A stretch of 64,000 bases of DNA, from assembly GCF_947623445.1 (NCBI RefSeq), contig NC_135241.1, positions 23,562,501 through 23,626,500 of the forward strand, written 5' to 3'. Origin of the DNA: Clavelina lepadiformis. Its lineage: Eukaryota; Chordata; Ascidiacea; Aplousobranchia; Clavelinidae. A program made the translations under genes and the position numbers. The notes under the pieces were generated by a model that was given only the letters and a program-made list of their open reading frames with translations, was not told where the DNA came from and did no database searches. Below are positions 3,156-64,000 of this stretch, in pieces. The first letter of the stretch is position 1; the number at the start of each line of letters is the position of its first letter.

Positions 3156-3685
3156 AACTAGACCTAAAATCAAATTGACGTCAAATTGTAGTGCCAAATC
3201 AGACTTTTAAAAGTACAGCAAGCCTATTTACGTAATTTTCCTGCTTTCGTAGATTGTTAGTGTCAATCTCTTGTACGTTTGCACTTCGTCTTCAAGGCCT
3301 AAATGAGTAGGAGTTAGCCTATGAGGTAATAAAAAGAAATTACTAAATTATGAGGTAATTAATACTCAATACTCGTTCATTAGCATATTAATGCATACTA
3401 GGCTAACACCAACTGGTTTGAATCTTTCGTCTCTGTACTGCGCTTTTGACAAAAAATAAAGTGATTGATCAATTGATTGATCCTGATATAGGAGAGCAAA
3501 AGTAAAGAAAAAGTATTTAAGCTATAGCAGTAGCAGTTAACCTCTTCATGTAGAAGCGAATTTTGAAGGTTAACTGCAAGTTCTGAGTTTTAACGACTTA
3601 AATTGAGCTGATTTTATGTTGTTTTTAGTGCATATTTTTACGTAAGTTGTAGCTTGTCATACACAATAGAGCAAAACGATTTAAA

Positions 3686-4696
3686 ATGGAAAATCAGCAG
3701 AATGGTGATGGTGATTTTCAAGTGGATAATGATCCTGATGATTTTCCGTCTTCAAGTCAGTCTTCCGGAGATGTAAGAAGAAGAGACCAAGAGCCTGAAA
3801 TTTTGAAGAAAAATCCACCCCCAGTCCGACCAAGACCAGCAAGCACTTATGGACGTCGAAGAACACCGCACAGCAACTTCAATGAATCAAATGCCACTTC
3901 ATCTAATAACAGTTTAATGCAACAGCCAACTCCGATCCATGACTATGAAGCTTCTCCTTTGTCTAACACTAGTAATAGCTTCCAAGAGCTTTCTGAAGAG
4001 CCACAATCCAGCAGTGCATCAGCACAGAACCCTTCGGATATTCCATCAACCAGCAACGGTACTTCATGCGCCACAGCAGTGGATGGGGTTAAAACGCGCA
4101 CCTTTGCCCAGCAAGTCAGCAGGGAAGAAATGCAAATCGGTGAGCAGGCAAGGCTGTTGCTCAATCTCTTCATTCAAGAACGTGCTGGTGTTGAAAACGC
4201 ACAAGTGACACCCATAATACGGGACTTGTGTCCGGCTGATAAGTCCAGTATGGCAACTGCTGGTTTTAGCGATGAAAGCTTGAGTGACATCGCCCTGACT
4301 TTGCGCAGAATCGGTGATGATATTTCACGCAATGCTGAGCTTAATAACTTTATCGAGCAAGTCCCCGTGCATTCAACACGCAACGTTTTTATGAAGGTGT
4401 GTTTGCAAATTTTTCAAGATGGAAATCTTAATTGGGGAAGAGTTGTGGCACTTTTTTATTTTGCGTATCGTTTGATCATCAGGACACTGACAAAAGGGCT
4501 GGATAGCGTGCCATGGGCTCGAGAGCTGTTGTCGTGGGCGGTAGAATTTATTGTCCGTCACGTGGCGCGGTGGATCATCAGCAGAGGGGGATGGAGAATG
4601 ATCAAGGAATGGTTCGGCGTTCCAAACCAGGTTTGGGTTGGGCTTTGTGCTGCTGGCCTAGCCATGACACTTTGGGCTCTTTTTAAAAAAGATTAA
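3686..4696 (+). CDS. BAX: BAX-like pro-apoptotic Bcl-2 family protein, intronless
   Basis: This 336-residue single-exon protein is a Bcl-2 family effector of mitochondrial outer-membrane permeabilisation. The helix-1 block LLLNLFIQERAG (about 156-167) matches BAX LLLQGFIQDRAG. BH3 is LRRIGDD (206-212) in the context LTLRRIGDDISRNAEL. BH1 is DGNLNWGRVVALFYFA with NWGR at about 249, nearly identical to vertebrate BAX. BH2 is WIISRGGW at about 296, and a hydrophobic C-terminal anchor at about 314-333 ends in a KKD tail. Vertebrate BAX is about 192 residues; here a Ser/Pro/Gln-rich, low-complexity extension of about 145 residues precedes the core. The start is the first ATG of the frame with AAAATGG context. 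Absence of introns, where vertebrate BAX has several, could mean intron loss or an old retrocopy, but the frame is intact. BAK is less likely given the BH1 wording. Confidence 0.93.
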   Translation: MENQQNGDGDFQVDNDPDDFPSSSQSSGDVRRRDQEPEILKKNPPPVRPRPASTYGRRRTPHSNFNESNATSSNNSLMQQPTPIHDYEASPLSNTSNSFQELSEEPQSSSASAQNPSDIPSTSNGTSCATAVDGVKTRTFAQQVSREEMQIGEQARLLLNLFIQERAGVENAQVTPIIRDLCPADKSSMATAGFSDESLSDIALTLRRIGDDISRNAELNNFIEQVPVHSTRNVFMKVCLQIFQDGNLNWGRVVALFYFAYRLIIRTLTKGLDSVPWARELLSWAVEFIVRHVARWIISRGGWRMIKEWFGVPNQVWVGLCAAGLAMTLWALFKKD

Positions 4697-21512: not shown

Positions 21513-24500
21513 TTAGTTATGCATTTGGGCTTGGGGAACTGCTGATATGGGGTAAGTTAAAAGTGTCTGTTCATTCATCTGCGACCCTGCTTGCACTACA
21601 GTCCGTTGTGCCGTGTTCACTCTCGGTGCAGGAGCGTGATTGTTTTGGACAACTGGTCGCACTCCTCCTAAAGAAACTGGTGGAGGCATCGACGTGTTAG
21701 CGGCTCCTATGCAGGACGTCATGGGAGCGCATGGTAGAGGCGCTGCCACGGGAACTATTTCTGCAAAAAAAAAAGAAATTACAAATGAACTACTTTAAAT
21801 TAAAGCTTTGTAACCAATGTTCCCCCTAAGCTGCGCGCGTACGCAAATGCACCCTGCTGACACGGTCTCCGCGCACAGAAAATCTGTGCTGCGCAAAAGA
21901 AAAAAAACCAACCTGAATTGAAAATAGAATAAACGCATAATAATGACCACGCGCACGTCTGATGTTGCTCACAGTGGTCGAAGAGACCGCCCAGGAAGTT
22001 AGAGTGTTTGCTCAGACTCGTGAATAATTAGAGGGAACATTGTTTGTAAGTTGTAACTATAGCGCACTAGGAAGCTATAGATACTAATATAATCCTCAGG
22101 CTATACTGCACCTATGAAAACGTTACCGCAAGAACATAATAAACGTACACAACAATGTACCATGAAAGTGTTAACAAGTCATGTAGCTCTTGAAGTAACT
22201 TACCATTGCTCTGGTGAGAAGGCGCCTGCACAAGAGCCTGTGAAGCTGGCGACACGTTGTTATACGCTTGACCTGCATGATTGACATGCAGCGAGGCTGG
22301 CATGCTGCTCACAGCATTACGTCCTGCATCGGGCACCAAGGCCATTTCATGGCCGGTCGCAGACACAAGTGTGCTTACTAAAGGCATGTTTTCAGTGGAC
22401 CTTGTAACAGTGTATACAAGCGCTGGCTGCGGCAATGGCACCCCAGGACCCATGGAACCTATGGTAGGCTGCCGTACATCACCTGACAGCGTCACGGCTA
22501 TGGTATTCGTCGCGGTTTGAATGGCACACCTACCACCAGCCAGTGCCGCAGCCATAATCGTCCCGGCAAAACTAGCAGCTTGTTGTTGTTGTGCAGCCAT
22601 CGGATTGTGGCTTTGAATCGGAGCTGAAAAAGATGCCATTGGCTGCTGTACCATCTGATTATGGCTTTGCACAGGGGCAGAAAAGCTCGCTATGGGCTGT
22701 TGGGCCATTTGGTTGATATTAGGCTGAGCAAGCTGAGGATTCGGATTGGGACGGGCATGGGGATTTGGATTGGTCATGGGAGCTGAAAGTCCAGAAACAA
22801 CTTGATTCGATCCCGGAATGATTTCGACATTTCCACCGGTGTTGGCCGCAAAATTTGAAGCAATAACTTGAGCTATTTTTAAACACACGATGAAACTCTA
22901 TCCTTATTTTAGAAGATATTTGCAAATGTATGTGATTGAATTGTTTCAAGACAAACCTATTTCCGTAGTGTGGGGGCCTGAGACTGGAACCTGCTGCAGT
23001 CGTTGTGCAGACGCAACTACAGCCCGTTGTTGTGCTTGGGCTGGAGCACTGTTCATTATATCCTGAGGTTGTGCTTGTGGCTGTCCGGCAACTGTTGCAC
23101 AATTGAAGTCTAAGTAACATTTAACTGGTCATCTTAATGGTGACTTCATAAACCTTACCTTGCACATTGAGTTGAACTGGAACAGGTCTTGGCGCGTTGC
23201 TTGCCACGGCAATAGCTGGTGTATTTAAAACACCAGCGGGAGCGTACGATGTTCCCATTGCCTCGGATGAAAGCCCATAATTTTGTGCACCCCTGTGCAA
23301 ATAGCAGAGTGATGTAAATTCAACATCAGCAAAAAGTTTCAATAAGGCGGCTGAACGACTGTATATTCACCTTTTTTGCAAGCGGAACTGTGCATTTTGT
23401 TCAAGAAGCACTTCATTAGTTGCTGCAAGATCTGAAACCTGTTTCTCTAATTCCTGTACTCTCTTTTTAAGGCTGCGGTTCTCCTCTTCAAGAGGCCTAC
23501 AAAGAACAAAATTAATCCAATTAGGTTGAGAGGGTCATCGGAAAATAATTAGTCAAAACAATAGAATATATCGTAGAAGCATTAGCAATCGGAAATTGAA
23601 AAAAACGCTTGAACACATAACTGTAAAATGTAGTATATAAATGTTTTTCTAACGAACATGAAGTTGAACGAAAAAATCTACTGCAATTTTTGAGTTTACA
23701 TGAAGATTTTCATGTCCACGCCTTACAGCAAAGATAGATCTTACTTGGGAACTTGCAAATGGCCACCAGCTTCTGTAGTGGAATGTAAATGACAAAAATC
23801 ACCGTTATCGTTATAGGCCTCAAGTTCTTCGAGAAGCATTCTAGGTCTTTTAATTCCACTTTCTTGTTGCGCTTCTGATACTAATTCGGCTTCTGCTGCC
23901 AACAGCGCCATCTGCTGGTGGTCAACATGCAAAAACTTGCATTTCTTCCCACGATGACAATCGCGGTTGAGAAAGTCTCGACAGACAGGCCTTCCATTTG
24001 CTTCCAGAGACCTGAGATTGTTTTCAATTCTAACTTTGTCATGACCCAAATAATAATCCCCGATTCCAAAATCGTGCTGATACTTAAGTCGAAGGGGGAG
24101 CCGATTTGTGGCCACGTAGTTTTCTTCTTCCTCTGATGTGCAGTGAATAAATCTAAAATAATATACACAGCTAGTAGACTAAATAATAGAAGAATCACGT
24201 TAACTTACACAATATTTGTCCAAAACCCAATCACTGGCTACTAAAGCCATGTTTACTGAAGTGAGAAATAGGCAACTACTTAATATATATAAATAATTCC
24301 TGTTAAGCCCCATTCTCTATATAAAGTGTTAGCATGTATGTCTTTGTCAGACAACTGTTGCTTTTCTATAAAACAATTGTGAATTTGTACCGGCAATTTG
24401 ATCTCTGACATTGATTGTTTTGAAAATCGTGACAAAATTCATAATTTACGTCGCTTCCTGAAACATCAACGCTTTCTTCTAATTCCTCCGGGGATGGGTG

Positions 24501-25275: not shown

Positions 25276-25677
25276 CTAATATAGATCTTCAGACTGGTCC
25301 ACAGTTGGAATGAGGCCACGTTCTTTCAACGCTTTCATTTTTATTTTCTCCTTCTCAGCTTTTTCCTCCTTCTTCTTGTTTTGAGCTTCCATTATCGCTG
25401 GAATCGAAACCTTTGTCAAGTTTTTTGGTTCTTCTGCCTCGGGATCAATCTCACCCAAAAGTACAACATTTTCTCCTCTGATAACGAATATGCCCCGTGG
25501 TATATCACCATACACAGAGTCAACATGTATGCGTTCGACAGTGTTATGAAGTACAAGATTAGCAAACTGATCAACAGATCGCAAAAATCCAATCAAAATG
25601 CGGCCGTCTCTAAGCATAACCAGATGCCTTTTGTCAATTTCCTCAATGAGGCTTGCAGTTCCAGGCATGTAATTCAT
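25276..25677 (-). CDS. LSM1: U6 snRNA-associated Sm-like protein LSM1
   Basis: This single-exon, 133-residue protein is the same length as human LSM1. The Sm1 motif includes HLVMLRDGRILIGFLRSVDQ, followed by FANLVLHNTVERIHV. Sm2 is GIFVIRGENVVLLGEID, and the C-terminal tail is Lys/Glu-rich, ending RGLIPTVDQSEDLY. LSM1 is the subunit that distinguishes the cytoplasmic LSM1-7 ring, which binds deadenylated mRNA 3' ends and promotes decapping and 5'-3' decay in P-bodies. It lies 525 nt upstream of ZC3H10 on the same strand. The start MNYMPGTASLIEEIDKR matches the human protein from residue 1. Confidence 0.96.
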   Translation of the reverse strand: MNYMPGTASLIEEIDKRHLVMLRDGRILIGFLRSVDQFANLVLHNTVERIHVDSVYGDIPRGIFVIRGENVVLLGEIDPEAEEPKNLTKVSIPAIMEAQNKKKEEKAEKEKIKMKALKERGLIPTVDQSEDLY

Positions 25678-28288
25678 GACTTTATTGAAGATCTTTATCC
25701 ATCCACAGTGATTGTATTTAATTATACATATGCATCTTTTCCAAGATGATGCAGTAATTTTCTTGTGTGTGAGTCTCTTTGGAATAAACTTGACAAAGTT
25801 AGAAACACATTTTGAATCTACAAGCTTCCATAATACATAAACATGGCCGTTCTGACTTACTGCTTAAGCAGTATATAGTGCTTAATAGTAATAGTATATT
25901 CACAATTTAAGTTGGCTTCTCGACGCTTGGCTAATTTGCCAATAAAATCAGGAGCTGCCTATTGAAGTTCGGTTAGATTACTGTTTGTGGTAGTATGAGT
26001 ACTGGCTGGTAAGATTACGCTTTAACCATAAAAAGGGATTTCAACAAATGTTCACTTATAACGTTCAATTGCTTTCGCTCTTCACCAATCCGATAAAACT
26101 GAATGTGCTTTGCATTTGGGCGAAGCATGAGTCAACTTTTAACTAAATGAAGCAACAAGATAAAGCCACAGCCTTATTATGATGTGATGTCAAAATACTG
26201 CATCACTTGCTGTTGTTGTCCTGTTTGGCAACTTAACATTCCGTCACACTTTTTTAACTAACAATATACATCACGACACCATTTAATTTTATTTTAACTT
26301 TTAATATACTGGAGCTTGCACAGTGATCACTGCACATCATAAAGATCTCTCCTTGAAGACAAGCAGGATAACAACGAGTGAGCAATGACCGACCTTAAAT
26401 GATCAAATCCGTTTCCCTGAAAAACCGACACATTTTCCAGTATGGTTCAAAGATGGGGCAATTGTGTCAAAATTTACAGATAATTTTAGGGATTGCAGCT
26501 GAATCTGGCGCAAACAGAAAAGCAAAGCATGTTTTCTATTTTAAATGCTTTGGAACTAAAACCATACTCGTAAAATTTGTATTTTGATAGACTAAATTAG
26601 AGTTTTCCCCGTAATTTTTTGGCAACCACAAATTGTTTGTATAACATTTGCCACAATGACCACTGTCCAAAGAATAATAACTACATACTACTAAATTACT
26701 ATAACAGGTGTCCATAAGCAAAACATATTCGCAACAGATTACGATCCTGACAATATAAACTAGCCTATAGGCAGGGTTGTAAACAGGCCATTTTTTTCTG
26801 ACTCGAGTCAAGTCGGTTAAAAACTTAAAATTGTGACTCATGTCAAGTCAAGTCAATATCTTTAAGGTAAAACAATTTTGAGGTCACATTAAGCTTTGCA
26901 TTAAATTTCTATGATATCATAACTGTCACATGCTCACGAACAGTTAACGAGCAGGCAAATAAATATATATCATACCTAAACAAAGCATTGAGGTTTCAAT
27001 GCATGCCGGAGCCGCAAACAGTCTGTCTCTGACGCACGATTTTTCGTCAAAAACTGCCTTAGCCTTTCAACACTTTAGAGTCAAAGTCGACCTAGAAAGT
27101 GGAATCCACCTGCTCACGCAAACAATCTAATGCACGTGCGGTCACGCATCTTCAACCGCAATTTTACATTAAAACTTGGAACATCCTAACTTTTGTCGCA
27201 TATAAAACCTCGTTTAAGTTGAAAAAAGGCTATAAACAAAATAACCTGGTAGAAACGTTAAGACCACATCGGCAAGTCGAATTTTGAGGTTGAAAATTAA
27301 CCATTTTGAGAAGAACATTGCACTCGCACAAAACAGCCTTCAGGAAAAAATACGTCACAATTTAGTCGCCTTGTCTGTTTTTGTCTGATTTCTATTCAAA
27401 ACCATTAGAGCACGAAAGTTGTGACTGCGAATACGTAACGGTTATGGTGGCATTAATCATAAAAAGTTACAAATGACCCCAGAATTATAAAAATATTTAA
27501 AGTTTTTTTCTCGTTCTAATTGCATTCATCCGTTGATTCAGAAGTTTTTATCCAAAGAGCTTTTTATCTCTCCAACTTTAGTATCACGAGGTTGCTGAAA
27601 GCATTAAAACTGCAGATACATACAAAATTTTATTAGAACTGAAAGATTTTAACCTAGGCGTTGCCAAACTTTTTGGTGCAAAGCCGCATTTGGTGTTGAG
27701 TTTTAAGAAAAGAATCAGATTATGTGCATTTATGACGTCATTAATACTTTTAACGCACATTGCCACATCTGGAACGTGGAAAGTTAACCAGCTGTAGCCA
27801 ATAAAACAGAAAAAAAGAATATTTCTCAAGCAATAGATGAAATTGGGAAAATCTCAAAGCTCGTCAAGGGCTTAAAATGTACAAGATTGTGTTAAAAATT
27901 GTGCCCCTGTCGTATTTAATCATTCAATGTATTTTGTACAGCAAACAGTACCTGTAAGTGAGATTTGTAAACTAAATTATTTTATTTTTAACATCTTATA
28001 ATATGACCCAGTCCTTACAAATTGATCTTAAAACTTTTTGCGATCATATCTTTTAATTTAGATTAATCCTCTGTTATTCGTTTTACTATAACTTTTCGGC
28101 GAATCATTGTAATGGAATGTCTTGACCAATCATATCAGTAAAATATGGTTTTTGTCAAGTTTTTATTTTCAATATTCCAATATAATCCTTGTACAAACAA
28201 TTTAAGTGACTTAATGCCCGAAGAAATACGGTAGAATGCATAGAGCTATAGATAGGTAAAACATCAACATCACTATAGTAGTATAGTC

Positions 28289-37470: not shown

Positions 37471-39187
37471 CTACAAATACTTCCAGAAAATATTCCTATC
37501 ACCGAGTTCAGCATTCAAGCCTTTCGGGTATCTGAATGGAGCCATCTCTATCTCCATCTCCATCGCTTCTTTAATCGACTCGTTGTTCCATAACTCCTCA
37601 ATAGGACTGTAGATCTTGAACTTTCTGATCCTCCTCTGTAAATCCTCGCATCGAATCATCAACCGCTTCAGCTTGTAGTTGCCGACATTCCAAAGATTGA
37701 AAGAGTTCAACATTGTTGGAAGGTTGTCGAGATCGCCAATGACCTGAGCATTGAAACCAAGATGAAGAATCACACAAAATTCATAAAATGCAAATTTTTC
37801 ATTCTTAACATTATGTATGTAAATATAACTAGACCGGAAAAATCTCACTACTGAAGATACCAACAGAAAAAATGAAATAGGTCAATAATTTTGGGAGCTT
37901 GGATTAGTGTTAAAAAATAAATTTAAATTAAATTGTTCTGATGTTAGGATTGAGAGAGGTACTTCGAAGGATTGTACAACCATAGAAATGTTATATACCG
38001 GAAAATTCAGAACAAGTTGGGTATCTTTCTTTATAAAGATAGACATACTAAATTCAATGATGAGAAGGTATAAAATTGCTCACTTCCATACCAATACATC
38101 ATTTACAAAAGAGTCATAAATAACAGTATGGCACCTCATCCACAGAAGTATTACTGGTCCCATCCACTTCAATGATATTAACTCCACGTTCCCTAGCCTT
38201 TGGAAAGTAAACTGCTTTGTAAGCGTCCTCAACACGCTTTAGATATTCAAGAGATAAACGCTTCTCAGCCTCATTGTTCCCGGCTTGGATATTCTCGTAG
38301 CACTGCTCTGCCGGCACGTCCAAATATATCACAACCTGATAATATGAATCAAAGTAACGTTGAGCTTAAACCTGTCCAAAATAGTAATTTACAGATCAAC
38401 AAGTGCTTTTGGAAGGAATTGCAAATATCTGATTGATATTTCATAAATCACGATACATTGATTTGTCTTCTTACGGTTTAGTTTAATCAACTGCACTTGT
38501 TTTCAGACTGGCATAGCCAATGCTTACCTGAGGTGGAAGAAGGAACTCATCAGAAGAGAAGGTCATTGTCTGATAATACTTCCATACGTCTTTCCTGATC
38601 CAACCCATTTTTTGCTGGGCCTCAGCATGCACCAAGTCGCTGTAGAAATGCCGATTAAGGACAGCGCCTTGACCTGTTCTCAAAAGATGAGCAAGGGCAT
38701 CGCAATACTGGAAATGTCGCATCTGTAGTAACCATAACTGCAACCTCGAGGTATGCACCCAGTTTGTGGGCTCCTCACAGAATTTATCCATGTTTAAAGA
38801 CAGCATCTTTTGATAAGCAGAGTCCTCACTCATTTCCCATTCTATCTTTTCATCTGGAAAGAAACCTTTCATCCTCAAGACAAAGTAATCGGTAGTTGCT
38901 GTTGGAAAATGTCTTAAATCCAATTTCTCTGCAAACTCTTTGGCGAAAGCTGCTTTCCCAACGCCCACGTTTCCTTCGACGCAAAAGAGCTTTGCCCATT
39001 TATCATTGTCCAAATGGTGACGAGCATCAAAGAAGTAGTTGAACCTGATGTTTTGGATGAGGTCTCCAACAGTGCCATAATGATTCTTTTGCTGAAGTGC
39101 TATGCAGGATGCCTTAAAAAACTCATTTTGTTTTGATCGGAATTTGGCCAAGTCACGTAGTACAGTGGTAACGCTGTTTCTAAGCAT
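37471..39187 (-). CDS. NDUFA10: Mitochondrial complex I 42 kDa subunit NDUFA10
   Basis: Three exons (39187-38528, 38335-38135, 37743-37471) join in phase to 377 residues (human 355). NDUFA10 is an accessory subunit of NADH:ubiquinone oxidoreductase on the matrix side, built on a deoxynucleoside-kinase fold. The P-loop-like GNVGVGKAAF begins at about residue 72. The kinase-fold blocks ATTDYFVLRMKGFFPDEKIE and LNRHFYSDLVHAEAQQKMGW lie in exon 1. VVIYLDVPAEQCYENIQ opens exon 2 and is typical of the family. The N-terminus MLRNSVTTVLRDLAKFRSKQ has presequence character. An acceptor-like GTGCCAG directly precedes the ATG. It is 175 nt downstream of TYW3 on the same strand. The exon 2 donor (GTGCCA) is weak, but the frame supports it. 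Confidence 0.94.
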
Positions 39188-39362
39188 TCTGGCACATTCA
39201 CAATATTTTAAGTATAGCCAGCACTTAAAACATCACTAGGAAAGCACCAACATCACCCCTTTTAAAATAATGTGTATGATACAGTAATAAGCTCTTGAGC
39301 CAAGAAAAGACAGTATTTAAAAACAAAAACAGTCAAAACAGTATACACCTTCTAAAAACTAA

Positions 39363-40133
39363 TCATAAATATTCATCACCATTAGAAAACAAAAACTGCA
39401 CATCATCAACATCTATTTCATTTTGTAAATGTCCAGGATTTTCTCCTTTGTGTTTTCTATTTCCTGTTTTGCTGGAGCTGGAATTTGACAACTTCTTACA
39501 TGTCTTATTTTCAGAAAACCTTAAATTATTGATAAGTGATCGTAATTTGGTTTCAAATAGCACTATTCTTTCAAAATTGTCCTTTAGCTTTTGATTTGCT
39601 TTATCGAGAACACATTTTATATAAAGATCTGAGGTGAGTCGCGCACCGTGAACGTCTGTTATTGGAACTTCTAAGCACTGTGTACCACGCACAGCCACCA
39701 TTATATTTCGTCCTTGTTTTCCCAAAGTGATTCCAGAATTCCTGTGACCGGCAGAAATTGCTGCATTTTGCATTAAGCGAGCTTCTTCCAATCCACAACA
39801 TTTGATGTGCATGATGAAACCTTCAAATTTCAACTTACTCTCGCATTTCACTTGATGCAGTGATTTTAGTACATCATGTAATTCCACAGTTTCATGTGAC
39901 ACCAAATGCCAAGTGCATTTTTTTGTCTTTTTCTGGTTTATGCCGCTTCCACCACTTTGTTCGGCATCATTTGACAATAAGACTATTCTGCCAGAACAAG
40001 AACTTGTCGTACAATATCCGTTTTGTTCGTTTATAAAGGAGACCAAGTTCTGAATCGCAGCATCGATTGAACCTTTTTTGCTTAAATCTATTCTGCTCAA
40101 AACGCAGCTTTTCCATTTCAAAAAATCATTCAT
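39363..40133 (-). CDS. TYW3: tRNA wybutosine-synthesizing protein 3
   Basis: This single-exon, 256-residue protein is close to human TYW3 (259). TYW3 is the methyltransferase-like enzyme acting on the N4 position of the wybutosine precursor at position 37 of tRNA-Phe. Visible family blocks are FLKWKSCVLSRIDLSKKGSI at the N-terminus (human WKAQCLSKADLSRKGSVD), the CTTSSCSGRIVLL motif, GHRNSGITLGKQGRNIMVAV (human GFRNSGITVGKRGKTMLAV) and LEVPITDVHG. The C-terminal tail is Lys/Ser-rich and diverges. The stop lies 175 nt upstream of the NDUFA10 start and no AATAAA was seen between them, which is compatible with a shared transcript. Confidence 0.95.
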   Translation of the reverse strand: MNDFLKWKSCVLSRIDLSKKGSIDAAIQNLVSFINEQNGYCTTSSCSGRIVLLSNDAEQSGGSGINQKKTKKCTWHLVSHETVELHDVLKSLHQVKCESKLKFEGFIMHIKCCGLEEARLMQNAAISAGHRNSGITLGKQGRNIMVAVRGTQCLEVPITDVHGARLTSDLYIKCVLDKANQKLKDNFERIVLFETKLRSLINNLRFSENKTCKKLSNSSSSKTGNRKHKGENPGHLQNEIDVDDVQFLFSNGDEYL

Positions 40134-40514
40134 ATTTCAGCAGTCTGGAGTAGATATAAAAACACACGCCGCTACTCCTAAAATAGTTAGAGTACGTAAC
40201 CAACAGTGAATCGTCCTCGTCCTACGTTTCTTAAGCATTTGACTTCAAATGAATGGCTTGATTGCTTGAAGCTTAACTCAGGTCATTTCAGATCCGTCAT
40301 CGACCGCTGATAGCTGGCTAAGCTTTACGTGACACAGCGCCCCTTAATTTACTGTGGCGTTTGTTACAGAATGGGGTCACATTTAATAATTACCCAAAAG
40401 ATTAATAAAAGTTTTCAAACATCTATCCACATTCTGTAACTACTGTAACCTCGGAAAATTGGCCATTAAATTTTTAAGCGCCACAAAGTTTTTTTTATAT
40501 TTCTAATTTGTAAC

Positions 40515-52579: not shown

Positions 52580-52586
52580 TATAAAA
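52580..52586 (+). promoter_or_regulatory. TATA box of GPHB5
   Basis: TATAAAA in a GC-richer context (GGCAGGTATAAAAGGCAGC) lies about 140 nt before the ATG. That would place transcription start near 52610 and leave a short 5' UTR. A canonical TATA box suits a tissue-restricted hormone gene. Confidence 0.65.
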
Positions 52587-52724
52587 GGCAGCGCTTAGGA
52601 TCAGAGGCTCAATTGAAATCTAGCAGCAGAGAACAGCTGGTCTATCAGCGGAAAATATTACGAGTTTGAAAACGTATATACGTACAAGAAATTACCTATT
52701 CGCTTTGAACATTATTTAAACGTA

Positions 52725-53477
52725 ATGGCATCAATGAAAGCTTCAGCTCAAAGAGTTGATCAACTTATACTTGGACTTTTAATTTGCCTCACAATTGCCG
52801 CAACGGTCAAGGCGGCAGCCATCGAAGCATCGATCAGCGAACAAAATACGCGATCTTTTATAAAGGATCTAACAAGGTTCGCGAGACTGAGAAGCAAAAG
52901 AAGTCCAGAGGAAATGGTCGCAGAATCCACTGACGCTGGTTCGTGGAGCGAAGACGGTGAAGTGAAGACCAATTTGTTGGGTCGCGTCTCAAGAGAAGTC
53001 ATCACGACTCGAATGCATGCCTTTCGCCGAAACGGAGCCGGCGGTCACGACCGTACTGTGAAGTGCGGCAACTGCGAACTCAGATTGCGACAGGTGGCCG
53101 TGAAGAAACCGACCTGTAGAGTACGCAAAGTTGTCATTTCCACTTGCGCTGGAATGTGCGAGACCTTTGAGGTGAGAACACGTTTAAACCTCTTCCTGTA
53201 AATACTTGTAAAGTCGTGTTATCTAGTTTTTAATTTAAAACTACCGCCGCTCGCAACGTCAAATTAAAGTGTCTACTTTATTTCTTAGATTCCGGAAATG
53301 AATGGTCTCACGAAGAAACATCATACTGTATGCAGGCCAAGCCAAGTGGAATATGTTTCCGTCAAACTCCAGGGTTGCGCAAGAGGTGTATACCCATTCG
53401 TTACATTAAGCAAAGCAACGGCGTGCAAATGCCAGAAATGTTCGTCGAAAGACACTTCGTGCAGGTCCCTGTACTGA
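52725..53477 (+). CDS. GPHB5: Thyrostimulin beta subunit (glycoprotein hormone beta-5)
   Basis: Two exons (52725-53171, 53289-53477) encode 211 residues. The cystine-knot domain matches human GPHB5 closely: a 14-residue spacing from NC to KKPTC (human GC to KKPGC), then CAGMCETFE (human CWGRCETWE) with the CxGxC knot motif at 141-145. HHTVC (human HHRVC), VSVKLQGCARGVYPF (human VTVKLPNCAPGVDPF) and ACKCQKC (human RCDCGAC) follow. The protein is a secreted hormone subunit, pairing with GPHA2 in other animals to act on an LGR-type receptor. Residues about 10-31 form a signal peptide. Unlike vertebrate GPHB5, about 80 residues lie between signal and knot, with a furin-type RSKR at 56-59. No N-x-S/T sequon is present. 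Eleven cysteines are visible, one (114) beyond the usual ten. The ATG is followed by an uninterrupted signal sequence. Confidence 0.9.
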
Positions 53478-56033
53478 CAGCTTTGTGCAAAAAACAACGC
53501 CTGAAAGTCGAGAGCTTAAATTTTGAGCTGTTTATGTCTTGACGGAGATGCAGTCAGATCTATTTGCCTGTTAATTTATTATTGAACACTGTTCAGATAT
53601 TGTTTTGCACATTGCTACTACGTCAAAATTGTCGCTACTGTGTCCGCATTCGTTTGTCTTGAAGTCAACAATTAAGACGGGATCTCTTCTGCGTGATCTA
53701 TGCAAACATGTCTCAGGGATTACCCGAAGGACTAACCGTAACCAATCAATTACCAGTTAATTGTTTAACGCTTCTTGAACCGATCTGCTTTTTACTGCCA
53801 ACCAAAAAACAATATTGTTTCTCTTCCGTTTACCTAAAATCTCTCACTCCGTTTGCTATTTCAAACAATCATACATGACCGGGACTCATGTACTTTGTGT
53901 GATTTATTTTATCGTTTTGTTATTTGCACAAGTTCTTCATGTCTTCGTTTCCTGTGACAGCTTCGTTTTCATTTTATTTAATTAAATAAACTATATCTAC
54001 GTTACATTTTGACCATGCTACTTTAAGAAGCTCGACTTGAATACGAAGCAAGATTGAATAAATTTTACAGCACAAACATATATTATCGTAGAAATTTACC
54101 AGTGCAATAATTGCACAAAACCAGGCTAAAGGTCTATATCGAAATAAAAGCTTAAATCAACAATATTTAAATCCCGTATATTAGTGTCTTGTTAGGCGCC
54201 GTTTTGCTAAGTCAAATTTGTAATAGAGTCCGGCTCTATGTTAAGATATTTGCGTACACGAGGTAAAATATTGCGCAACATTACCAATATGTTGATATTG
54301 GGTAGGTTTACACATACTTACACACAGCGCCCGCCTTAACAATTAACCAGTTTCTCATTAGGAAACAATGAGGCTATTTTAAAATAAATAAAAAGGAACG
54401 TGTTTTATCCCATTCACGAAGGCAAGCGCCATATTGTTTATAGCGTTAATCGCCGGTACCAAACAATAACTAACTGTCCTTCGATAAATCAGATCTTTGT
54501 GATATTGATCTGAGAACAGCCGGTGTTGTCGCATGTTACGTCACAATCACACATTGATCACGGCCTCTTTTTTTCAGGAACGGTAAGTGTCGGGTCATGT
54601 CATTTTTCACTTTTGTTTACTTTTCTAAAAACATTTTTTGGAAAATAAGCGCGTTTTAGGGAATGTCATTTTTATAGCATTATGTCACGGAAATTTGGAT
54701 TCTAACAACAGAGTTCACAAACAATCCTGCAGGAGATAATGATTTAATTTTTCACTTTTTAAATTTCATGTTATCTTTCTTACGCTGGTAACGTTCTCTA
54801 CGAAATAACGTTGTTTAAACCTATAAGGGTCTTCAGAGATATTTTTTGTTGTTTTGTGCATATTGTTTTTAGGTTTTATCCTAGGCTGTTGGAGTTTGTA
54901 AGGTAAACCTCATAGTACTCTAACCTAGGAAAACTACTCAAATTTACCCTACTTAATCTAATGCATTTATCAGAACACTAGAAGAAGATTGGTTAGAGTT
55001 CGATGTTTATCAATAATACGTACATTTCATATTTAGCTGTTTGGTCGGGAAGGTTCATGTCTGCACTCCATTCTATTTTCAGTTTCTTCAGGGTAATTGT
55101 TTTTAAATAAATTAGGAAACAAAAAAAAACTTTTTTGGGCCTTATTGACTTCACATGAAAGTTGTAATGATCAACGACGTAAATAACAAGGCCCAGCACA
55201 AAATTGCACAAAAAATATTTTATTTAGAAGAAATTTCCAACAAAATCCAAGATAAAACTGTTTACAGGTAAGTTATATAGCATTAGGCCTACCATGGGGT
55301 AATGTTGCTTAACCCACAAAATATTGCATTAAAAAAATCTAACACCAATATCTCGGTTGTTATAACATCAAAAAAAAAACAGGAAAACATCAAGACAACG
55401 CGGTGAAATCAATTTTGCAATAATATTTGTTACAATAATTTGCAATCAACAGTAAGAAATGTTACATGATAACTATACCAACATGTTGTGACATATTGCC
55501 TAGGTTTACATACAATCATTTGTATGGGCCTTATTACCAGCATTACTCATGTTTATAAAATATTGCTTTGAGTGAAAAAATATGGGAGCTAGGCCTTATT
55601 TACTGCCGGTGCCTTGTACAACTTGATGAAATAGATCAGAGACTATAAGTTTACTTCAGTGCTTTTTTTTGACAATTTATTTTTGTAACAGACACAAGCG
55701 ATAAAATTCACAATGTTGACAGTGAAACGACAAAACGTTGACGGCAGTAATAGAACGGCAGAACAATGGAACATTACATAACGATATTTAAAAACTATAA
55801 AGTGATTTGTGTGACATTTTAATAAGTTATTATGGCAATATCTCGAACAAAATTTTTTCTTATAGCCTTTTATCCACATATAATGATTACAGTCTGATCA
55901 CAAAAAGTATCGCCTGTACCAAACGTCCAGTTTGGCTTAACAAAGACAACAAGTCAAGCCCATAGAATAGTACCTGATTAACGAAACGGTTTGACAGTGT
56001 TGTGAAAGAAGTTTTTATAATTTTATCTTCTGG
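53478..56033. other. Convergent intergenic region between GPHB5 and GPHA2
   Basis: It contains the GPHB5 3' UTR (poly(A) signal at 53985-53990) and the GPHA2 3' UTR. I see no gene between the two; the interior is AT-rich. Confidence 0.6.
53985..53990 (+). terminator. Poly(A) signal AATAAA for GPHB5
   Basis: AATAAA in TTAAATAAACTATATC lies about 510 nt after the stop codon and is the first strong canonical signal seen downstream. Confidence 0.55.
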
Positions 56034-56126
56034 TTAATATTCTTCACACTCCCCGCATCTGCATTCTACCGCCGACATGATGCTTTCCATTACGGTACTT
56101 CCGCCACAGGTCATCGGGAACTCGAT
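56034..56126 (-). CDS. GPHA2: Terminal exon of thyrostimulin alpha (glycoprotein hormone alpha-2)
   Basis: The minus-strand exon 56126-56034 follows a strong acceptor (TTTTGTTTCAG) and encodes IEFPMTCGGSTVMESIMSAV then ECRCGECEEY and stop. The pattern C-(14)-CxC-xx-C with a short acidic tail ending in Tyr matches the C-terminus of GPA2: human has C-(15)-CQCDMCRLSRY and Drosophila C-(14)-CSCYHCKKD. These supply the last cysteines of the alpha-subunit cystine knot. Earlier exons (signal peptide, first cysteines, CC pair) must lie to the right, in the rest of the window or beyond it; I found no convincing candidate. Its position convergent with GPHB5 strengthens the call, since the two subunits are also clustered in several other invertebrates. 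Another small cystine-knot protein is the alternative. Confidence 0.65.
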   Translation of the reverse strand: MEFPMTCGGSTVMESIMSAVECRCGECEEY

Positions 56127-59100
56127 CTGAAACAAAATGTTGACTTCAAAATAACGCCACAATCCTTTTACGGTAGAAATTTTGCAGAAGTCTTTCTGTG
56201 TTAAGTCAACCTTATATTAAGTGAAAGTAAACTCGGCGATAATTTTACATGGAGCGGGGATATTTCATCGTTGAGGATATTTCGATGTTGTATACTCTCG
56301 TGGATAACCTCCAGCAATGAAATTGCACTCTTTGCTAGGATCACATAGACACGTCAATCAAGAAATTACCCTGGCTTTGACAAAATATTTGTCGTCAAAA
56401 CTGTACAGTGACATTAGATTGGAAGATTAACTGCACGCCATTGACAGCGCAAAAGATCTTTTCACTCGATTAAACTCTTGATAGTTTGATCTAATCTGAC
56501 TCGATAAAGATGACCGGAGAGCTCTTTTGTATGTCAGTGTTTCTAACTGATAAGTTCTTCACAATTTAAAAGCTTTTTATTGGGAAAGATTCATTGCATG
56601 GTCTCAGCAAATGAGTGTTGCCCCGATCAATCTTGATTGTCGGTCACATTAAGCCACTCGGAGTATCTGTTCTGGGAATAAAACAAAATTAAAGGGCCTT
56701 AGCACCGAACACTCGGGAACCCTTGTCACAGTGAAAAACGTTATTTCTGTAACATCCTCATTTCTCAAGCTGCTGCTTTTATTGTATGATAGTTGTCATA
56801 ACGTTAAGAAGTTATAAGTATTCATAACAAACTTGTGGATATCTCTTTTTTTGTGAACCGTAAGCTAAACCGTATAATTAATCGGAATTGAACATGATTT
56901 TAACCAGATTGTGTGCAGGATGAGAAATTTTGTCTCAAACCAACACCCAGTGAGAGATTAACATTCGTAAAATATTTGATATTTTGTAACAGTTTTTTTT
57001 TAGTTTCGTGTTTCTTTGCGGATTAGATATTTCATTCCGCCTTTAAGACATTTTAATGAAGATGTCATAAGAGCGATTTGCTGTTGGGAAAAATCCGCTT
57101 GCCCTTTATACGTGCAAGTTTACCAAGACACCGCAACACAGACTTTTCTGGCAAAGACACTTTTCTTAGTTTGTCGTATCCAACAGCGACGGATTTGCGA
57201 TCGATTATCTCGTATTTACGAAACTTAAGGCAAATTTCTGTTTATTTTGGCGACAAACCTACTTTAAGCTTTAAAACTTTGGATGCCAAGGCTATGCACG
57301 CAATGTATTGGGTGAATGAAAAATGACTTCTATTTTGGACCGTTTGTGTACGGCTTCGGCTCTCTAACAGATCTCGCAGTCATTTACGGTGTGTCAATCA
57401 CACCAATTCGCTGGAAGTGTCTGTATACCAAAGCAACTTTCGGGGTATTTTGTCGGAGCAAAGAGCCGACCAGAAATAGGCGCCAGATGGTACCTAGACT
57501 CGCTCCTAATAGGCGTGAAACCCTTGTTTGTGTGCGGGAAGCAGGCACGCAGTATGACAGACAAATCATCCTTTTATCACGCAAGCAGCACTCTGCAAAT
57601 CAGGCTTCTAATAGGCTGTGTAATTAAGAACATTTTTGCAAACTTGCACGGCGCCAAAAACTCGTCGGCCGCTGTCAGGCACTGATGGCATTAACTCCCA
57701 TAAACATCTTTGAATATCTTTTGATATCGTGCGTGTTGACGTTTCGCGGTTCAAACACTTGTCTATTTACGTTATAGGTTACGAGTTCAACGGATCGATG
57801 ATAAACTTACTTTATTTGTCAGGGACACCTGAATTTGATAACATTGCGCAAACATTGTCAATGTTGTGGTATATACTACTTGGAAATTAGGTGATAGACG
57901 AAATTTTCCGTATCGGTATAAGAAGAGGCTGAACTAGGTCATGGATTTGATCAAGACGTTTAAACCAAGGATTTGACTCCATGCGAATTGCAAATCACCT
58001 CTTATTTACTAATCACTTCGTCAAATCATTAGGATTTGTTGCAGGTAAGAGTGTATGTTTGATGGAGCATATAAAACGTGACGCATAAAACAGCTTTTTC
58101 ATGTTGCATTTGCCGATTTAGGGAGCGGGTGGTGTAACTCGAATTCGGCTCCAGCTCTGTTTGCACGCCCAGTCGCTATTGACGACATACGAGATGTTCT
58201 TGTCTCATATCATTGATTAATAACTACTGACACTTGTTTAATATTCATTAGGCGTAGCCGTAGTTGTCATTACAACGTTTTCCTATTGGTGGATTTGTGT
58301 CTCATCGAAATCGGTCTTAACACTGCGATGATGATGAATCACGTGGTAATCATTTCTGCAACGTCATACTTGTGATCAAGCTCAATGATAAGTTGTGCCT
58401 CTAAAATCATACCCGGTCCCAGGGTGGCCACATGCGACGTCCAATCGCACCAAGCACGGCTGTACAAAGCCTTAAATATAGTTCATTTTCAGTGCTAGGG
58501 CCAAGATGATCTGCTTAGACCACACGTGTACCCCCATTTAGATTTGCCAGGAATTTTCGCGAATATCTTACTCTAATTTTGAAAAAGGTGGGGCTTTGAC
58601 CGAGTTAACAATGTGAAATCGATGAGTAATGTTACAAAAATCCCACATATCTGACTGAAAAATGCTTTACTGTGAACGCTTTTTCTTCAGCGCCTGCGAA
58701 ATGTCTCTGGCTCATCACAAGATTTTTATCGCGCATCGCTTTGCGGAAAGTAAACGCGAGAAAAACAGGACCGCTTGCGATTACCGCGACAAGTAATGAA
58801 GTTCACGTTTTGGGGTAAACAAACGAGGAAGGACGCAGAATGCTTTCAATTAAATTTAAAATCTTTTTTATAAATTCTTGGCAAAGGGCATTTTTTGCTC
58901 GGAGGTATACTTGTTTTTATTGCATACGCGCCTTGTCTATGCCGATGTAGACATAGTAAACAGCGTTTATGCTTAAAAAACTGATGCAAGGCTTCGGAAG
59001 AAAAAAGAAGCCTAAAATAAAAACATTTTTGTAAAAAAAAAATAATCATATTCAAATTGAAATATCTGCTAATTGCAATATTCCCGAATTAATTTAATTT

Positions 59101-62100
59101 AAAGTATTAGAACAGAAAATACAGTATTTTTATCATAAAAGAAAGTCCAAAACTTACATATTTGTTAATACTTCAACGAACCTAAAGATACTTTGCCAAT
59201 ATTTTTATAATCTGTGACGACGTTCATAATTATTCATAATTTACCCGGCACAAGATTACGCCCAGAATGATTACCCGTGTCAGCTGGTTTTAACTAAAAA
59301 TACACGTAAAGTCGATCAAGGTAACGTCATTGAAAAATTGTCAGGAACCATGTCACGCAATAAGCTTGTTTTGAATTCATGATATGGCTTTATATTTGTA
59401 ATATTTTTAAAAGTTGTTTATGTTAATATTGCGTTGCCGTTCTAGCGACCCCGTTAGTGTTGAGGTCGGTTTCGTGAAGCTTTTTTCGAAAGCCTAAAAT
59501 ATGCTATAACTTTTTCGTACAAACAACATTTCCAAAACTGGACTTATTATTGCGCTAACTATGATGATACTCAGGGGCTGCGTGACGTCATTCTCTACAT
59601 GTTACAAGGTGGCACAGTACAATAAAGAATGGAACAACTATTACAACTACTTAATGTACTTCTCACAAATATAAAAGTCGGGTTATAGTATAATGACGCC
59701 ATACGGCGCAGATTTACTTCACAAAGCTTAATTCTATAAATGCTGGTGATTAGAGAGAATGGCTCCTAGTAGAGTTATTGTAAATAGGCTACGTCATGTT
59801 TACAAAGTCACATCTAAAACATGTTTGCGTTCGTCGAATTCCTCTTTCATAAGTTGCCATTGTTCGTGACACGGTTAACGTCACGTTCGTCAAACAAACA
59901 TAAAACGCGAATATTCCAACCATCGCCTTAATAACGCGATCACATTTGCCCCACAACGCGGTCAGTGTCTTGAGGTTTGTTATAGCCTGTCCACTGATAG
60001 CTATAGGAAGGTTTCATTCCACGATTATCCGCACGATTTTTTACGTGTTGAACGTAACCCGCCATCTATTGGTTAATTGTATTTTACGGAGGAATTAATG
60101 TGCGTGTGCATTGTGCGACTTATCCGACCGTCATATTTCGCACCTTAATCTCTAATCAGCGTAAACGATCTGGCGTCATAACTCGCCCGAAAATATGAAT
60201 CGAAACACGAAAACAAGTTTCGCAAAATCGTTGCCCTCGGTACGCGTTTCTTTGAAAAAATAGTTTTGTGTTAAAACTACATAAGCGAAATACTTTTGAT
60301 CCTAGCCGCTCTGTGGTCTACTGTTTTATTTGTCAATCGGTATCTTCGCCTACGCGTGAGTGGTGGCATAGGCATTCAAAGATGCAACTGGGTTCCTTAA
60401 TGACCCCATTGTCGAAGCAAATCATGCTCAAAAAATGGAGTTGTTTGCAAGGGGAACCTTTACATGCCGTACGCGCATCTCGGCTGTTCACAGTTCGCTG
60501 TTTACAAGCACTGCCCGTCCAATATATTGATTGGTTGTTGATTATATCAGTTTGTAACGTTAACGCCCACGCGCGTATTCCTTAATTACGAAGATCTGCG
60601 GTTAAATTATTCAGTTCGATTACTTTTTAAATCCATAAACACAGGCCGATGGTGTTGTTGTTTGTGAAAAGATAAGGGAGGGAAAATTGCAGGGTTTGAG
60701 TCAGGCTGCTTGTGCAGTGACACAAACATGTCTCGTCCTTACCATGAACGCTGCAAAAAGATGAACGCAATATAATTAATCATAACTTTGTTTTCGCCTC
60801 ACTAAATTTACTTGATATTTTGAATGCGCCACCATTATTGGCAGACTTACGTCAGCAATGAACCATATAGTTTGTCACCAAATTGAAAAGTGCGTCTTTG
60901 ACGTACTCCGAAAGGGGTTGTCACGCATAGAGGAACACTTGCGTCGTGTGCGTAAATGCTAAAATCACGAGCCTGTCTGCAAATGAGCTTTCGTGTTTAA
61001 AAGGAAATAAATACGAAACAAGTCAAACTAGTTGTTTGTATTTCTTCTATTACTTCATCGACATCATCAATCGCAAGAATAAACAGTTTAGGGGTTTGCA
61101 GTTTAGGGGGTTTCAGTTTCAGGGGGTGCTACTTGAGAGACGGCATAAATAACTCTCCAATACCAATCATTTTTTCTTTGTGTGTTAGGCCAAGCTAAGC
61201 TTATTTGCATTTTGCAATAATTCAGTTTAAATTACAATTGCTTGAAAGTTCTTCATCTGTTAAGTAACAATAGCCGCAACGAATTGCCATCAACGTTGTT
61301 GCGTTACTGAGTTGTTTTATTGATCACTTATCGATTTCTAAATATACTTCTAATCTGCAGAGTAATTTCATCAATGTGAGCCAAATCGTATCGTTCTAGA
61401 CAAATCTGAGGTTAACAAAGTTGATTCACTGAATCATTCCGTTTTTGGTCCGATTTAAGAGAATATAATTATTTCGGAATTATCAGTTTATTTGCGGTTC
61501 ATATCTGCGTGAGTTTCAAGTCAAACTAAGCTCACTCGCTCGTTTGCGGATTTTGCTGTGCGGGATTAACGAATCGGGCGACTGTAACGGAGGTACGTTT
61601 CGATTGTAAACACGAAGCGATAACATTGCTTTTAAAAATTTAATCTTGAAATCAAAATTTAGATTCAATTCTGTTCTTATTGCTTTCTACTTTGTATCTA
61701 ATTTGCATATAACGGTGGGATAGATATTAATAAAGAGCTGAACCGGTATTGAACACGAGATCTAAAGCGAGTATAGCCTTCGCCGGAAAAAATAGCCACG
61801 TGTCAAATTGTAGGGTAGTAAGATAACGCACCAGTTTGCTATGGCAGAGGGATCGGGGGGAGAACAAGGTTTCCTGGTCATTTATTTAGTTACTCATTCG
61901 AAGGCGGTAAATATCTTCACTTAAAAATAATTTAACGACTAAGTGGCCATGTAGCATGTAACCAACCGCATTTGCAAACAAATAAATGAATAAGCGACCG
62001 CATTTCAATTATTCAAATTCATATTTTTATTCAGTAAGCAGGAAACCGGCAACCAGCTTCACGCCTGTGTGGTCGATATTGTGCAAAATTTTCATCAGCG

Positions 62101-64000
62101 CTGATTTTTTTAGCTTGAATTTTGGGCTTTTTTCGCCGTTGGACTCCAGTTTTTAAGCTATTTTGTTCGTGTTGAAGTTATATAATGCTGTCACGTGTTT
62201 TGGTTTGTTAAACAAAAACGTACGTTTTCAACTTTAATTTAAATACATTTATCCGTTACATAAGCGATGGTTTTACTTATGCAACAGCTACTTTGACCCA
62301 CATAAAGCATATCAAAATATTTGGCCTGTCACGGGAATCTCAACTGATATTTATAGATTTACGTATGGTCAACTTAAAGGCCACTGCAAGTCGAATGATA
62401 AATATCTTTCATTACACACTTGAAGCATCAAGACCTCCTACTTGAAAATATTTTTTAACTTAAGTCAAATATTTCACCTTTGTTTCTGGAAAATTAACAC
62501 CAACTCACAAAGACGAACAAGACTTCATTATTCTCGAAAATTCGCTCATATGAATTTATGTCACGTTACAAGCTGAGCTGGAACCGCAAGTACGACGAAG
62601 TTGCAGCATAGACTAATAGGATACAACGCCTTTTCTATCCAACCAATGCAGGAGTATTGCAGGAGAAGCAATGATGTACGATAACATGCCAAAATGCGAA
62701 CGTGATCAAATTGCAAGATCTTATGGTGCCCATTGCATATTTGGCCACCATTCCAAAACTTTGTCAGAAAAACAAAATACAAAATTGTAAGAATACGAAA
62801 AACGATCAACAGTCATCTGACCATTACAGACATTTCTGACCGTAGACGGTGGTGAAGCGTGGATTATCAGGAGATTTTGGAAACTTTTTGAAACACTATA
62901 TAGGCGCCTATGTGTTGTGGTTTTTTTATTCTAAGCTAACTATGTATTGATTAAAGTTTTTTTCCGGAATTAATTCCAAGTATCAAGTTAATCGCGAGTT
63001 CATTGACGCAATTCCCGTCCAATTTATTGGTATATTGGTTAATGACATGTTACCGTCAGCGACTTATCGGATTCATTTAATCCCTTGCAAATTTTTATAC
63101 TTCGTACCTTGGCCTGGACCTGGACTTTTCGAGGTACGTCATCAACCAAGCAACATTCAGTTGACGGGCGACAAATTTTGTGTTCCTGATATGATGACCC
63201 CGCGACGTCCATGCATTTATTGCCCATATTTTGCACTTTGCGGGTGTAAATCGCATTCGTATATAGGGTACGAAAACCATAGGCGTGTAGAATTAGAAAC
63301 GATATCACTGGTTATTTGGAAGAAAGGATTTGGGTCATTCTAAACCCGGACCCCTGCACCTCTTCAGCACAGACTTGCTAGTCAGGCTCCAATTATTTGA
63401 ATAGTAATTTCAGAAAATGGCCTATACTTGTATAAACTTGACTTACTCGGTTTATTTCTATTGGCAGTACTTTAAATGTCAGTGGCGAACACTGGCCGTC
63501 GTATAATAGAAATCTTATTAATAATTTAGGTAAACCGAATGCCATGTCCGGCTTATTTTATAGGTCATCATAATTGTCTCGGTTAGATAAAATAAAACAA
63601 AAAATAAATGGCTTTTTGCAATTCCCCCGTAAGTGACCGATTATACTTTGCGTGCTGTTGTTATATGTTGCGTGAATGTCAAAGAAGATCTTTACGCATT
63701 TCGCGTCAAGATATATCAATCCCCCTCTTCAAGGCCGGCTTTGATCGTTTTAGAGCTTCTTGGTCCATTTTGTATCGGAGAAATTGGTAAATATTTGCGC
63801 CTTAAAATAGGAACATTTTAATGCGAATCGAATTATCTGTTTTCTACATCGCGAAAAGCTTATGACGAATTGACAGCTTTCACTTCACGCGTCGAACTTT
63901 AACGTCAAAGTGATATTTTTAAAGGCTAGCTTACGTCTATGATCGTTTCTAGGTTACGTATTTTTCCCAGATAACCTATAATATAAGAAAATCTCTTGTC
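56127..64000. other. Large gene-free region right of the GPHA2 terminal exon
   Basis: I see no gene that I can support. Several short open frames exist (for example around 57316-57690 and 60268-60585), but they overlap one another on both strands and lack splice or family support. The region is the likely location of GPHA2 introns and its 5' exons and/or regulatory DNA. A three-unit 15-bp minisatellite lies at 61084-61128. Confidence 0.45.
61084..61128. repeat. Three-copy 15-bp minisatellite
   Basis: Units CAGTTTAGGGGTTTG, CAGTTTAGGGGGTTT and CAGTTTCAGGGGGTG run in tandem. The G-run core resembles telomere-like TTTAGGGG, but only three units are present. Confidence 0.7.

Follow-up and report, generated by a model that had tools for sequence, protein, structure and literature searches.

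Thyrostimulin is an ancient relative of thyroid-stimulating hormone, and the question raised by this locus of the ascidian Clavelina lepadiformis is whether it carries the genes for both thyrostimulin subunits, GPA2 and GPB5, and whether their linkage is inherited. The window, i.e., the whole analysed stretch of 64,000 nucleotides, corresponds to C2:23562501-23626500. We regard it as almost certain that convergent genes for both subunits lie here and that the locus is the only one of its kind in the assembly. The analysis showed two complete predicted cystine-knot genes, with frames and splice sites intact and with hydrophobic N-termini.

The original prediction had placed a GPHB5 cystine-knot gene on the plus strand, and this gene was recovered with the following features.

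52725-53477, plus strand: whole GPB5 gene, two exons, 211 aa, in frame, with the ATG at 52725
52580..52587, plus strand: putative TATA box TATAAAAG, by direct reading, ending 138 bp 5' of the ATG
52725..53171, plus strand: coding part of GPB5 exon 1, with the first five knot-region cysteines and the donor GTGAGA
53172..53288, plus strand: GPB5 intron of 117 bp, GTGAGA..TTTCTTAG, phase 0, directly after CETFE
53289..53477, plus strand: GPB5 exon 2, to the stop codon, with the acceptor TTTCTTAG

In the profile search that had been proposed for both products, the GPB5 protein matched Pfam Cys_knot at 51.3 bits (cut-off 24), while the 30-residue minus-strand peptide by itself gave no Pfam match. 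In the genome, the PF00007 profile matched over GPB5 exon 2 at C2:23615807-23615980 (window 53307-53480). The Cys_knot domain was nearest to the beta subunits of the glycoprotein hormones, the top solved structures being FSH-beta and CG-beta at 38–39 bits. Judged by length alone, GPB5 lacks a seatbelt, as only 11 of its 211 residues, C207 among them, follow the last knot cysteine, C200.

The N-terminus of GPB5 is hydrophobic and reads as a signal peptide. Including this peptide, 113 residues (52725-53063, plus strand) precede the first knot-region cysteine, C114, and this long N-terminal extension bears a furin-like site, RSKR. The knot region contains 11 cysteines, an odd count, whereas that of human GPB5 contains ten. 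Within KCGNC (53064-53075, plus strand), C117 is separated from the following cysteine by the usual 13 residues, and C114 looks like the extra cysteine that gives the 11. The odd cysteine could leave one free for an inter-chain disulfide. No N-glycosylation sequons were found in the predicted GPB5 protein.

For comparison, the exons of the C. elegans genes gpla-1 and gplb-1 were taken from the part of PMC10319355 that describes them. The alignment of GPB5 with GPLB-1 was weak, with a score of 56 against 53 for the best of 1000 shuffles, and GPB5 aligned better with GPLA-1 (score 85). The intron within the knot lies in phase 0, four residues past C-x-G-x-C, and its place and phase are those of intron 2 of gplb-1 (CETFE^ in GPB5 vs CKTSE^ in gplb-1), as read from an alignment in which the last exon residues, both E, are paired and the residue that follows is opposite a gap. 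The two genes differ in that gplb-1 is interrupted once more, after residue 14, by an intron absent from the GPB5 model, and in that the first cysteine of GPLB-1 lies within the first 25 residues, in contrast to the long N-terminal extension in Clavelina.

On the minus strand, an exon of the GPHA2 type had been proposed at 56034-56126. The exon stood at these coordinates and proved to be the terminal exon of a complete three-exon GPA2 gene, whose other two exons lie beyond the end of the window.

56034..56126, minus strand: GPA2 exon 3 (last), IEFPMTCGGSTVMESIMSAVECRCGECEEY followed by the stop, 30 residues, acceptor TTTTGTTTCAG, phase 0
56127..64000, minus strand: the part of GPA2 intron 2 within the window; the intron is 13,625 bp in all
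C2:23632252-23632430, minus strand: GPA2 exon 2, would-be window 69752-69930, past the window end, located by profile match and reading
C2:23632786-23632876, minus strand: GPA2 exon 1 from the ATG, would-be window 70286-70376, past the window end, located by a scan

A search of the 209 Mb, 95-contig assembly with the glycoprotein hormone alpha profile PF00236 gave two matches at E<=10, both below the cut-off. The better one (20 bits, E 0.10, C2:23632240-23632380) lies 5.7 kb beyond the window, on the chromosome and strand of the minus-strand exon and 13.6 kb upstream of it, and it splices to the exon in phase 0. The sequence of exon 2 reads NCKSVIIGINACRGYC...ACCTIESYER and is followed by a donor. 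Exon 1 was sought on the upstream minus strand, as far as C2:23645300, by requiring phase 1, a hydrophobic beginning and a cysteine close to the exon end. The scan returned three rows. One of them, MKFLLLLCLFVATTLAGGKSKWKVPGCHLR, lies upstream of exon 2 and is separated from it by 355 bp, the length of intron 1; the remaining two represented a single frame, roughly 6 kb further upstream, that was unconvincing and was rejected. Joined in frame, the three exons give a protein of 120 aa, MKFLLLL...GECEEY, whose hydrophobic N-terminus can be read as a signal peptide. The 13.6 kb intron, like both gene models, is predicted from the genomic DNA.

Such a long intron brings up the possibility that the frame at 56034-56126 arose by chance and that GPA2 ends elsewhere. 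The missing Pfam match of the exon peptide alone would fit with this, and so would the frequency of similar exons. In a scan for last exons (phase-0 C-x-C-x2-C, 20–70 residues, behind an AG), 13 candidates with 5 distinct stops were found in 165,600 strand-bases, including the 4 candidates of the exon itself, so that such candidates are not rare, with about one distinct stop per 33 kb. Between the exon 2 donor and the exon 3 stop, on the other hand, the 4 candidate last exons all shared the stop of the 56034-56126 exon, the sole candidate stop in this stretch, and no other last exon with a different stop was found in intron 2 within the limits of the scan. After the CC pair, the cysteine gaps (13, 14, 1 and 2 residues) equal those of GPLA-1, as do the phase and the acceptor, and the G+C content of the exon is 49.5%, compared with 32.3% and 38.3% beside it. 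Because the PF00236 match lies 13.6 kb upstream on the same strand and splices in phase 0, and because a further exon upstream completes GPA2, the exon stands above chance, and we consider a chance frame extremely unlikely.

The complete minus-strand protein was examined for the cysteine pattern of the alpha subunits, and the pattern was present: ten cysteines with an adjacent CC pair and a C-x-C-x2-C end. The cysteine gaps are 13-9-3-26-0-13-14-1-2 in GPA2 and 13-9-3-18-0-13-14-1-2 in GPLA-1, which is an established GPA2 orthologue according to passages of PMC10319355. Thus, one loop differs, the loop before CC being longer in Clavelina (26 vs 18 residues). The ring motifs C-x-G-x-C and C-x-C are present as CRGYC and CRC. 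GPA2 and GPLA-1 had 35 identities among 101 aligned residues, with an alignment score of 135, whereas 1000 shuffles had a mean of 29.7 and a maximum of 58. Both GPA2 introns (2/2) are located at the aligned residue and in the phase of those of gpla-1 (phases 1 and 0).

The profile scores taken by themselves leave room for another identity of the minus-strand gene, namely a different CTCK protein such as a bursicon-like protein or a BMP antagonist of the DAN/gremlin type. GPA2 scored 20.2 bits with Pfam Hormone_6, below the cut-off of 25, while DAN (33.7 bits) outscored Hormone_6 and, like Cys_knot (26.9 bits), was above its cut-off. NCBIfam profiles gave no matches. With GPLA-1 as a control the Pfam order was the same, and Hormone_6, at 13.2 bits, was also under the cut-off; as this protein is an established GPA2 orthologue (PMC10319355, in the passages on it), the order speaks against the other identity. 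The best match of GPA2 among solved structures was 8enb_A (41.4 bits), a chain deposited as 'Bursicon', but 75 of its 78 compared residues are identical to GPLA-1, and because of this identity we took it for nematode GPA2. The next matches were seven glycoprotein hormone alpha sequences at 19.6–21.0 bits, with a von Willebrand factor chain close behind at 18.7; these nine were all the sequences obtained with full GPA2 at E<=1, and neither gremlin nor NBL1 was among them. With exons 2 and 3 only and E<=10, a norrin fusion also matched, at 14.7 bits.

The sequence around the CC pair and the gene structure point in the same direction. Bursicons carry C-x-C-C, and GPA2 has AACC instead. The match of both introns to gpla-1 also argues against another CTCK protein. 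The bursicon or BMP-antagonist identity was rejected with GPLA-1 as the control for Pfam order, introns and cysteine gaps, and we consider it very unlikely. GPA2 contains one sequon, an N-x-T seven residues before CC, and the alignment pairs it with the KNVTS site of human alpha. Vertebrate GPA2/GPB5 and the glycoprotein hormone alpha subunit belong, like the Clavelina proteins, to the cystine-knot family. According to parts of a review (PMC4341566), vertebrates and Ciona have two GPA2 glycosylation sites in common, and in the deuterostomes analysed GPB5 has one site. Clavelina differs in having one sequon in GPA2 and none in GPB5.

The claim that the two subunit genes are linked and convergent held as well: 2,556 bp (53478..56033) separate the two stop codons, and in the gene models the distance between the start codons, which lie on opposite strands, is 17.7 kb. 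No convincing reading frame was seen by eye in the spacer 53478..56033, and no nested gene was evident by eye among the listed frames in GPA2 intron 2. Scanning downstream of the two genes gave the following candidates.

53981, 54057 and 54143, plus strand: possible GPB5 polyA signals, 700 bases scanned
55823, 55681, 55224 and 54748, minus strand: possible GPA2 polyA signals, 1500 bases scanned

These putative signals in the scanned stretches would end two separate transcripts.

To examine the copy number, the whole assembly was searched with both proteins. Among the best-scoring candidates, all three GPA2 matches and both GPB5 matches were exons at this locus, with the exon 3 match at C2:23618537-23618629, and no second copy of GPA2 or GPB5 was found in the assembly among these candidates. 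PF00007 matched eight times in the assembly, once at GPB5 exon 2, and none of the seven other loci was matched in the GPA2 or GPB5 protein searches. Six of these seven, those with an open match frame (L005 was left out), were by eye VWF/mucin-type or CCN-type CTCK domains and were rejected. One locus, L008, has a CTCK domain followed by many near-identical threonine/proline-rich repeats (PPVEAPSATTTTPPKPVPTTTEEEGSGETTT) in one open frame.

The original prediction had also raised co-regulation of the pair. On the gene models, a shared bidirectional promoter is excluded by anatomy, because the layout is convergent with the start codons far apart on opposite strands, and each gene would have its own promoter. 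Co-regulation of the pair would need a shared enhancer. An enhancer in the large GPA2 intron or in the 2.6 kb spacer, needed by both genes, might have kept the pair together in the fast-rearranging tunicate genomes. We consider this rather unlikely, but if true, the linkage would reflect shared control and not inheritance alone.

Could the linkage instead be recent or accidental in this lineage? The flanking genes named in the window (BCL2-family, LSM, TYW3 and dNK-type) are not known to be among the neighbours of human GPB5, and this would be in line with a recent origin. The published comparisons contradict it. In a 2011 paper, the pertinent passages describe gpa and gpb as adjacent in most invertebrate genomes, Ciona included (PMC3280201), and in the vertebrates compared in the sections cited of PMC6752823, GpB5a is always immediately beside GpA2. 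Synteny of the locus is conserved across human, amphioxus and limpet, as stated in part of PMC4079206. A recent or accidental linkage is accordingly highly improbable to us, and the linkage most probably represents the inherited ancestral gpa-gpb pair. The claim that the ancestral pairing has been kept agrees with this, since the linkage is the arrangement described in the literature (PMC3280201, in the passages on adjacency).

As adjacency and synteny have already been published (PMC3280201, PMC4079206 and PMC6752823, in the parts cited), the linkage is expected; it is already known from Ciona, and Clavelina adds a species and not a phenomenon. Both subunits are present and adjacent in Ciona and other invertebrates, as described in passages of PMC3280201, and the same is seen here, the Clavelina pair being convergent with a 13.6 kb intron in GPA2. 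No earlier description of glycoprotein hormones in Clavelina was found in the open-access literature searched, subscription papers being outside its scope. We consider the locus an ordinary case of modest comparative interest. Complete models of the GPA2 and GPB5 genes, with exact exon boundaries, are thereby available for an aplousobranch ascidian, and the intron positions common with the nematode support the view that the two subunit genes are each very old.

By analogy with the family, both subunits would be secreted, and a furin-like protease would probably trim GPB5 at RSKR. Pairing of the subunits may give a non-covalent heterodimer that lacks a seatbelt. This heterodimer could activate a receptor of the type-A LGR class, or each subunit could also act singly, which is debated in other animals (PMC10319355 and PMC7137729, in the parts cited). 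In searching for the receptor, PF12369 gave no matches in the assembly, in a search run without a positive control. The tunicate marker GH6 (PF01341) likewise had no match, again with no positive control. PF00001 gave 182 matches, with 147 of 476 candidates scored, and by eye no type-A LGR motif was seen among 7 motif hits, the loci examined including 30 of the 182 matches.

Further genes are present in the window. Ten of its 121 listed frames were searched against Pfam, and six matched at E<=0.01. A single-frame BCL2-family protein is encoded at 3653-4690 (plus strand; Pfam Bcl-2, 82.1 bits), which by eye is BAX/BAK-like and has a C-terminal hydrophobic tail. The other five matches are exons on the minus strand: a TYW3 exon at 39366-40136 (161.9 bits), a deoxynucleoside-kinase-type exon at 38486-39232 (42.5 bits), NDUFA10-like by eye, an LSM protein exon at 25279-25863 (62.6 bits), LSM1-like by eye, a Sulfotransfer_4 domain exon at 1375-1824 (86.3 bits), and a CCCH zinc-finger exon at 23744-24178 (25.3 bits).
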